A stretch of DNA of 64,000 bases. It comes from Cyanobacteria bacterium REEB459. GTDB lineage: Bacteria > Cyanobacteriota > Cyanobacteriia > Phormidesmidales > Phormidesmidaceae. The stretch lies in assembly GCA_018970085.1 (NCBI GenBank), contig JAGWXD010000010.1:1-64000 (forward strand), given 5' to 3'. Below the pieces are notes generated by a model. The model was not told the origin of the DNA. It worked only from the letters and a program-made list of their open reading frames with translations, and did no database searches. Position 1 is the first letter of the stretch. Each line of letters begins with the position of its first letter. Positions 37,308-45,243 of this stretch are shown one piece after another. Both the position numbers and the translations under genes were made by a program.

Positions 37308-38006
37308 ATGCTTACTATTGCCCTACCCAAGGGAGCCCTGCTAGAAGACAGTATTCGTCTGTTGCGATCGGTGGGTCTTGATTTCAGCCTATTTTTAGAT
37401 AAAACCAATCGCCAGCTCCAAATTGCCGACCCCACCGGCCAAGCTCAAGCCCTACTGGTACGGGCTCAAGATGTCCCGGTCTACGTGGAATATGGGCAGG
37501 CTCAGATCGGTATTGTGGGTTACGATGTGCTGCGGGAAAAGCAACCAGGGGTTGCCCACCTGATTGATCTGGGTTTTGGGGGCTGTCGGCTATCGGTAGC
37601 GGTAAAAACTACCAGCCCCTATCGCTCCGCCCTGGACCTGCCGGCCCATAGTCGGGTGGCCTCTAAATTTATTCATTGCGCCCGCCAGTTCTTCGAAGAC
37701 CTGGATTTACCTGTGGAGATCGTGCCCCTTTACGGCTCGGTGGAACTGGGTCCCATTACCGGCATGTCTGAGGCGATTGTCGATCTGGTTTCGACGGGCA
37801 AAACCCTCCAGGAAAATCACCTCATGGAGTTGGAGGTGCTTTTCTACAGCACAGCACGGTTGGTCGCTCATCCCCTCAGCTATCGGGTGAATGCCGCCGG
37901 CTTAAAAGGCTGGATTGATCGAATTGAAACCTGGGTTAATTCAGGGGCTATAGCCCCGAACCCGACCCCAGGGCTCCAGGGAAAAAACAGTACACCTGCT
38001 CATTAA
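37308..38006 (+). CDS. hisG: ATP phosphoribosyltransferase, short form (HisG)
   Basis: First enzyme of histidine synthesis, joining ATP and PRPP. The short form (232 aa here) needs the regulatory subunit HisZ, which is not in the window. [18 protein letters not shown] opens the protein, followed by [21 protein letters not shown], then KYI-type segment [13 protein letters not shown] and the PRPP loop [19 protein letters not shown] 37278 would add ten residues ([10 protein letters not shown]) and is also plausible; the longer open frame back to 37107 overlaps the previous gene and is not real. Confidence 0.95.
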
Positions 38007-38037: not shown

Positions 38038-38067
38038 AAGATTATATTTAGAAAGTTCTGTACTTCT

Positions 38068-38076
38068 TGTTACAAT
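38068..38076 (+). promoter_or_regulatory. Extended -10 promoter of the putative small RNA
   Basis: TACAAT at 38071-38076 is preceded by TGT, the extended -10 signature. No good -35 is seen at 17 bp. It would start transcription near 38083, just before the first hairpin of the putative RNA. Confidence 0.5.
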
Positions 38077-38082
38077 ATTTGA

Positions 38083-38221
38083 CGGAGGAGATGAGAGCCC
38101 TCCAGATGGGAAAGCCAACCCTATTTCTGAGAAATTTAGTGGCGGTTTCTTCCAGATTGAGAGAACAACATTTCAGGTATAGTTGATGACCTGTTTCGGC
38201 TTCCCCGGAAGCCGTTTTTTT
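38083..38221 (+). ncRNA. Putative structured small RNA between hisG and asnS
   Basis: About 140 nt bounded by an extended -10 box (38068-38076) and a strong intrinsic terminator (38197-38221). Internal dyads are GGAGG/CCTCC (38084-38088 with 38099-38103), ATTTC/GAAAT (38123-38135) and CAGGT/ACCTG (38174-38193). No open frame of useful size is present. The terminator ends 125 bp before the asnS ATG, so it could be a free small RNA or an attenuating leader. I do not recognise an Rfam family; it does not look like 6S, SRP, tmRNA or a known riboswitch. Confidence 0.55.
38197..38221 (+). terminator. Rho-independent terminator
   Basis: CGGCTTCC-CC-GGAAGCCG forms a perfect 8-bp stem followed directly by seven T residues, a textbook intrinsic terminator. 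It ends the putative small RNA upstream of asnS. Confidence 0.88.
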
Positions 38222-38346: not shown

Positions 38347-39732
38347 ATGGCCCGGATTCGAGATATCTTACAGACTGGAGAACCTGGACAGCACCTTAAG
38401 GTTCAGGGTTGGGTCCGGACCCGGCGGCAGGTAAAGGAGTTTACCTTCGTCGACCTGAATGATGGCTCCTCGATGGCCGGGTTACAGGTTGTGATCAAGG
38501 CTGATTTGGAGGGCTACGCCAACCTGCTCAAGGATCTAACTACCGGATCGGCGGTCGAGATTGACGGTCAACTGGTGCAATCACCTGGTCAGGGGCAACG
38601 GGTGGAGTTGCAGGCAGACCAGGTAATGGTGGTGGGTACGGCCCCAGCAGACAGTTATCCCCTCCAGAAGAAGCGCCATTCCTTTGAGTTTTTAAGGGGC
38701 TTAGGTCATTTGCGATCGCGCACCAATACCCTAGGGGCAGTGTTTCGGGTTCGTAATACCTGCGCCCAGGCAATCCACCAGTTTTTTCAGGACCGGGGAT
38801 TTTTGTGGATCCATGCCCCCATTATTACCGCTAGCGACTGCGAGGGGGCGGGGGAGATGTTTACGGTCACCAGTCTGGATCTCAACCATGTACCCCGGAC
38901 CCCTAACGGGACAGTCGACTATAGTCAGGATTTCTTTGGTAAACCCGCCTACCTCACCGTCAGTGGGCAGTTAGAAGCAGAAATTATGGCCCTGACCTTT
39001 CGAGATGTGTATACCTTTGGGCCTACCTTTCGGGCGGAAAATTCCAATACCTCTCGTCATCTGGCAGAATTTTGGATGGTAGAACCAGAAATGGCCTTCT
39101 GCGATCTAGCAGGCAATATGGACCTGGCAGAGGAATTTCTGAAATACCTATTCCATGCGGTGCTGACCCAGTGTCCGGAGGACATGGACTTTTTCAATCA
39201 ACGCCTTGATAACTCTGTGATCAGCACTGCTGAAAATATCATCAACCATACCTTTGAGCGGATTACCTACACAGAGGCCGTGGCGCTACTAGAAAAAAGC
39301 GATCGCCGCTTCGAGTTTCCCGTCGCCTGGGGTATTGATCTACAGTCAGAACACGAACGCTACCTGGCAGAGGATCTGTTCCGCAGGCCCGTCATCGTCA
39401 CCGACTACCCCACAGGCATCAAGGCCTTTTATATGCGCCTCAATGCCACAGGACAAACCGTGGCAGCTATGGATGTGCTGGCCCCCAAGGTAGGGGAAAT
39501 TATTGGCGGTTCTCAACGGGAAGAACGTCTAGACATCCTAGAACAACGGCTTCAGCAGGCTGGTCTGGATCTAGAGACCTACTGGTGGTATCTCGATCTA
39601 CGTCGCTTTGGCAGCGTGCCCCACGCCGGCTTTGGGCTGGGCTTTGAGCGGCTGATGCAGTTCATCACCGGAATGGGCAACATTCGAGATGTTATCCCCT
39701 TTCCCCGCACCCCCGACAGCATTGAATTTTGA
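38347..39732 (+). CDS. asnS: Asparaginyl-tRNA synthetase
   Basis: Class IIb aminoacyl-tRNA synthetase, 461 aa from ATG 38347 ([19 protein letters not shown]). The N-terminal OB-fold anticodon-binding domain has [22 protein letters not shown]. The catalytic domain has the class II motif 2 ([21 protein letters not shown], broken here only by convention) and motif 3 in [29 protein letters not shown] is typical of AsnRS rather than AspRS. A few upstream codons are open but unconserved. It may be influenced by the upstream terminator-bearing RNA. It converges with trpE, with 35 bp between stops. Confidence 0.96.
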
Positions 39733-44873: not shown

Positions 44874-45243
44874 TGGGGGCGGAGGGACTTGAACCCTCAC
44901 GACCGCAATGGTCAACGGATTTTCATTCTCCCACAGCTTTCACTGTTATCCCGTCTCCAGCCATCATGGTTAGATACTGGTGAGGGGGACTTTGAGAATT
45001 GGACCCTCCCTTTACCCTCGACTTGACGTTAGGGTAGCTCCCGTCGGGCCTCTGCACCTTCCGGCTGACAAGCAGCTGGCTTGGCTCAGGATTGCCATAC
45101 CTGCCATCTAGGTGATCAGTGATTTATCATCTAGATTACAGCAGGCTTAGGTTTCCCTGAGTTTGAGAGCTTCCACTTAGCAAATTTCTTCACCAAGGCT
45201 CAGTTTTCTAAGTCCGTAGCGTCTACCGTTCCGCCACGCCCCC
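44874..45243 (-). tRNA. trnL-UAA: tRNA-Leu(UAA), interrupted by a group I intron
   Basis: On the minus strand, exon 1 (45210-45243, 34 nt) begins GGGGGCGTGGCGG and ends ACTT. Exon 2 (44874-44923, 50 nt) begins AAAATCCG and ends CGCCCCCA. Joined, they give an 84-nt tRNA with a 7-bp acceptor stem (GGGGGCG/CGCCCCC), an anticodon stem ACGGA/TCCGT, anticodon UAA, a T-arm GAGGGTTCAAGTCCCTC and a long variable arm. CCA is not encoded. The intron splits the anticodon after its first base, as in chloroplasts and many cyanobacteria. Confidence 0.95.
44924..45209 (-). ncRNA. Group I intron of tRNA-Leu(UAA)
   Basis: 286-nt self-splicing intron. It begins after the U of exon 1 with AGAAAACTGAGCC and ends in G before exon 2, as group I introns do. 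Conserved core pieces known from trnL introns are visible on the minus strand: ACTCAGGGAAACCTAAGCC, GGCAATCCTGAGCCAAGCC and GGTGCAGAGGCCCGACGGG. No homing endonuclease frame is present. Confidence 0.93.

Follow-up and report, generated by a model that had tools for sequence, protein, structure and literature searches.

What is encoded between hisG and asnS in Cyanobacteria bacterium REEB459, and on which gene may it act? In the window (the whole stretch of DNA analysed, 64,000 nucleotides), the original prediction placed there a non-coding unit of about 140 nt and offered two readings of it, a free regulatory RNA or a premature-termination leader controlling asnS. The elements it named are present: an extended -10 box (TGTTACAAT, hexamer ending at 38076), at least three internal dyads (38084-38103, 38121-38139, and 38174-38193, besides the terminator), and a textbook terminator with a 7-bp stem and a T7 tail (38197-38221). 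The features of the locus are the following.

37308..38006, + strand: hisG, upstream neighbour, outside the small RNA unit
38060..38073, + strand: NtcA-type site GTACTTCTTGTTAC, GTA-N8-TAC and also GTN10AC, overlapping the -10 box (from sequence and conservation)
38068..38076, + strand: extended -10 box TGTTACAAT, hexamer at 38071-38076, invariant in the genus
38082..38221, + strand: NsrR1-like small RNA gene, predicted start at 38082/38083 (inferred from the spacing to the -10 box and from the start of NsrR1), end at the T-run
38084..38103, + strand: 5′ hairpin GGAGG(AGATGAGAGC)CCTCC, invariant in the genus
38121..38139, + strand: central hairpin CTATTTC/GAAATTTAG, variable in sequence, with a stem mostly kept in relatives
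38144..38153, + strand: conserved block GGTTTCTTCC, from the alignment of relatives
38157..38172, + strand: putative segment for target recognition, UUGAGAGAACAACAUU, which is complementary to the nblA leader and corresponds to NsrR1 nt 58-67
38174..38193, + strand: small hairpin CAGGT/ACCTG, from the sequence; its counterpart in the alignment, helix 3, is 94% paired across the genus
38197..38221, + strand: intrinsic terminator CGGCTTC-CCCG-GAAGCCG followed by seven T, 7-bp stem, in all genus homologues
38347..39732, + strand: asnS, downstream neighbour, outside the small RNA unit; the adjacency is not kept in relatives

The sequence scan gives two promoter-like sites (overlapping) against 0.7 expected and three terminator-like sites against 1.2 expected. 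Single-sequence folding is no better than chance (z = -0.57, with 55 of 200 shuffles folding equally well), so that structure alone is insufficient to justify the original claim. That the unit is real is shown by its conservation in relatives, not by its fold or the motif scan. Among relatives of the window, a 156-base query finds it in 24 of the 25 further genomes of the genus and in none from other genera. The one same-genus genome without a match, G014, is 83% complete, and the absence of the small RNA there is probably an assembly gap; a probable nblA leader site occurs in that assembly (G014:C49:3224-3241, L309), yet the small RNA is not found in it. The genus is Nodosilinea-like, with core-pattern matches in Nodosilinea, Phormidium tenue, Leptolyngbya, and others.

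In the genus alignment, the promoter CTGTACTTGTTGTTACAAT, the 5′ segment GGAGGAGATGAGAGCCCTCC, GGTTTCTTCCnnATTGAGAGAACAAC, and the terminator are near-invariant, as is a 13-nt segment of the RNA, and the middle is variable in both length and sequence. The predicted RNA is about 139 nt long and the aligned unit spans 133 to 155 across the genus; relative to NsrR1, the difference in length lies mainly in the 5′ half and in the variable middle. The stems are kept in relatives with moderate statistical support: the covariation score is 0.141 versus 0.126 ± 0.008 after shuffling (a value reached by 15 of 500 shuffles). Of the stem cells, 90% are paired, versus 31-52% when the stems are slid. In the central hairpin (helix 2), four of the seven pairs are changed on both sides and 79% of the cells are paired. 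GGAGGAGAU of the 5′ hairpin is able to pair with GGUUUCUUCC at 38144-38153. This long-range helix, which would join the start of the RNA to the GGTTTCTTCC block, has a permutation p of 0.04 and is only suggestive. The block itself (38144-38153) is conserved and lies outside the duplex with nblA; its partner may be the RNA's own 5′ end or a second target. Its pairing with the terminator, as drawn by RNAalifold, was judged spurious.

At gathering score, Rfam 15 gives no match for the RNA, T-box and other leaders included, and with a relaxed E-value solely a chance snoRNA fragment, far under its threshold, is returned. The prediction that the RNA belongs to no known family is therefore correct for Rfam 15 and fails against the literature, where NsrR1 is described (PMC6166021, PMC7281752). 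Elsewhere in the window, on the - strand (44990-45219), a Group I intron scoring 64.4 bits against Rfam RF00028 seems to interrupt a trnL(UAA)-type gene with the 5′ exon GGGGGCGTGGCGGAACGGTAGACGCTACGGACTTA; ARAGORN reports no tRNA at that locus or elsewhere in the window.

An attenuator of asnS with a premature terminator would agree with the position of the window terminator, which ends 125 bp ahead of the asnS start codon on the same strand, and with G001, where asnS is likewise downstream and on the same strand. These are, however, the only two of the 25 loci with asnS downstream. Downstream of the RNA, the other loci have another gene or a convergent one, in 18 of them a convergent hydrolase gene; conservation ends at the terminator, and Rfam returns no leader. 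On synteny, the asnS attenuator is rejected and we give it next to no credence, and the variation of the downstream gene supports a free regulatory RNA. What usually precedes the RNA is an RqcH-like (NFACT-type) gene, a name that is approximate (NCBIfam matches are under the curated cut-offs). This gene is near the RNA outside the genus as well, both in other genera of the family and in members of two further families, which supports positional orthology. In the window genome, it sits on another contig, so that the placement between hisG and asnS has the look of a local rearrangement. A reading of the RNA as an mRNA whose small protein would start at the ATG in GGAGGAGATGAGAG would account for the ribosome-binding-like GGAGG immediately ahead of that ATG and for the 31-codon frame open in the window. 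Yet the GGAGG-ATG spacing is very short and, past MRAL, species differ in the length (6-47 aa), the sequence, and the register of the frame; being unconserved, the small ORF is rejected and such an mRNA is extremely improbable.

The arrangement GTN10AC over the -10 box is that shown for the repression of nsrR1 by NtcA (PMC6166021). Of 69 homologues, 68 keep it at precisely this spacing, a count that takes in homologues found with promoter-containing profiles, and a T precedes GT in 63 of the 69. All eight homologues that a promoter-free model finds outside the genus have GTN10AC exactly over the -10 box. The window has the same NtcA-type arrangement, including the preceding T, at 38059-38076, and ntcA is found in the window genome. 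Within the window, GTAN8TAC is at chance frequency (13 versus about 16 expected); since the motif is common by chance, the evidence for the NtcA-type site is its conservation.

NsrR1 of Nostoc sp. PCC 7120 is a 112-nt RNA with U51, C63, and C66 and a footprint at 58-67 (PMC6166021, PMC7281752). NtcA binds the nsrR1 promoter and represses NsrR1 at nitrogen step-down; NsrR1 lowers nblA translation and keeps the light-harvesting antenna from dismantling under plentiful nitrogen (PMC6166021). Homologues were reported from heterocystous strains and close unicellular relatives only, and not found in distant cyanobacteria (PMC6166021); among the papers searched, none extends this range.

The homology of the window RNA to NsrR1 runs through intermediates. 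A covariance model of the transcript (R1) matches eight genomes outside the genus, seven from the same family and one from another. A profile including those eight homologues and the promoter (R2) matches in 99 of 388 cyanobacterial genomes. A third profile (R3), built from intermediate lineages without any Nodosilinea or Nostocaceae sequence, matches at E ≤ 0.01 in 181 of the 388 genomes and 92 of 159 genera, with about four genomes expected by chance and with the matches near E 0.01 in distant families being weak and putative. R3 finds the window at E 2.6e-8 and Nostocaceae mostly at 1e-9 to 1e-15. A transcript-only profile also finds the window and Nostocaceae, with no convincing false match in 442 kb; with the terminator and the same-family rows removed, the window is found at E 0.0055 and small RNA sites alone are reported in those 442 kb. 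Blocks of the alignment are GAGAAGACAACG and GGGAA..GCA. Distant homologues have a central motif CCCGCUGCAAGUUUGGGAACGCGCAG ahead of GGUUUCCUCC..UUGAGAGAACAACG. The CCCGCUGCAAGUUUGGGAACGCGCAG motif occurs in L161-L177 and related loci (families f15, f24, and f25), with a variable hairpin instead in Nodosilinea. A match of Uhrbacteria (L127) to the DNA pattern comes without the rest of the unit and was discarded.

In G398 and G390, the RNA measures 112 nt if its first base is taken to be the seventh after the -10 box, with U51, C63, and C66 and with GAAGACAACG at 58-67; the upstream gene is on the same strand and the downstream gene on the opposite strand, as published for NsrR1 (PMC6166021). 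Both G-18 and G-21 of the published compensatory mutants are found in the nblA leader of G392 (PMC7281752, PMC6166021). We read G390, G392, and G398 as Nostocaceae by their fit to the NsrR1 coordinates, and the identity with NsrR1 is drawn from that numeric fit of Nostocaceae-like relatives of PCC 7120. A first guess that put C63 and C66 of NsrR1 within UUUCUUCC was dropped, as the Nostocaceae numbering puts them in GACAACG.

The segment UUGAGAGAACAAC, invariant in the RNA, has its complement in the nblA leader, immediately ahead of the Shine-Dalgarno. nblA is present in all genus genomes examined, and its leader there is nearly always GTTGTTCTCTC..AGGAG, the complement of GAGAGAACAAC adjoining the Shine-Dalgarno. 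In the window genome, the leader ATGTTGTTTCCTCTCAGGAG pairs with UUGAGAG/AACAACAU around a two-base bulge (p = 0.017); the pairing segment of the RNA is partly single-stranded (0.41 unpaired in the predicted ensemble). The anti-seed-plus-Shine-Dalgarno pattern has a single match in the 3.24-Mb window genome, at nblA. Genus-wide, there are 29 matches, 24 of them at nblA hits and, as we assume, probably one more in G014; the remaining ones are one antisense of the small RNA gene and three elsewhere, and the reversed control gives two. Among 65 genomes, the pairing between RNA and nblA beats dinucleotide shuffles (p < 0.01) in 31, which include almost the whole genus; in f24 and some further lineages, a convincing pairing with nblA was not found. 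Where genera differ in the bases that precede UGAGAG (AACU, CCCA, AAUA), the nblA leader differs accordingly (G033, G029, G319). In 19 representatives, with relatedness only partly corrected, the cognate pairing is -15.6 versus -13.8 ± 0.45 kcal/mol for permuted pairs (p 6e-5); within Nostocaceae alone (seven genomes), the covariation of the pairing is not significant (p 0.56).

A small RNA that descends from NsrR1 could have another regulator or another main target in the genus, with the nblA match a minor or relict one. It would then be less surprising that the GGTTTCTTCC block lies outside the nblA duplex and that the nblA pairing is weak in several lineages, and the published NsrR1 does have a second target, all1871 (PMC7281752). 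Against this, the window genome has the match once, at nblA, nearly the whole genus keeps it, and the seed flank and the nblA leader co-vary; we regard such a shift of regulator or target as unlikely.

The conserved gene, its promoter architecture, its homology of the NsrR1 type, and its co-varying complementarity to nblA are shown by computation on the genomes. With NtcA-type site, small RNA, nblA site, and ntcA all in place, we infer the same circuit as for NsrR1: the RNA is very probably a trans-acting NsrR1 orthologue, gated by NtcA, that represses nblA translation in nitrogen-replete cells. In such cells, it would be transcribed from the extended -10 promoter (38071-38076) and end at the terminator (38197-38221). 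Its 3′ segment would pair with the nblA leader and the pairing would block translation of NblA, the phycobilisome-degradation protein, and would probably destabilise the nblA mRNA. Under nitrogen limitation, NtcA would bind GTN10AC over the -10 box and turn the small RNA off, and nblA would be released (a feed-forward loop). Transcription, NtcA binding and repression, and the translational repression of nblA are projected here from the published NsrR1 work.

Phycobilisome breakdown is the classic cyanobacterial response to nitrogen starvation. Small RNA control of nblA was previously tied to heterocystous strains. If the reading as an NsrR1 orthologue is true, a conserved loop of NtcA, small RNA, and nblA in Nodosilinea and many other lineages would be a general cyanobacterial circuit, and why NblA needs silencing in replete cells becomes testable in other strains. 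The kind of small RNA is already known; what is new is the Nodosilinea-type member and the breadth relative to PMC6166021. We consider it likely that NsrR1 did not arise within the heterocystous lineage but is an old and widespread cyanobacterial small RNA with an ancestral NtcA-gated repression of nblA, shared by other filamentous lineages, in which RNA and target site have co-evolved, and that the range reported in 2018 reflects the limit of single-sequence BLAST. A profile is ready for annotation, and Rfam has none matching.

Among known systems, T-box and other aminoacyl-tRNA synthetase leaders are alike in having a terminator upstream of a synthetase gene; here, in contrast, there is no covariance model match and no conserved linkage to asnS (2 of 25 loci). 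Yfr1, Yfr2, and PsrR1 are alike as conserved free cyanobacterial small RNAs, of which Rfam gives no match for the window RNA; the conserved Yfr1 motif is CACUCCUCACACC (PMC4734099), and it is absent from the window RNA. From a comparison with the literature, the NtcA-controlled nitrogen small RNA acting on glutamine synthetase inactivating factor is alike in its NtcA control, but it is induced, not repressed, under nitrogen limitation and has another target. NsrR1 of PCC 7120, with 112 nt, differs from the window RNA of about 139 nt (about 27 nt longer from its predicted start) in the 5′ half, in the central hairpin, and in the genomic neighbours. The two are alike in the NtcA site GTN10AC over the -10 box with T before GT, in the intrinsic terminator and the free transcription unit, in transcript homology via intermediates, and in a segment GAGA..ACAAC that pairs with the nblA leader at the Shine-Dalgarno.
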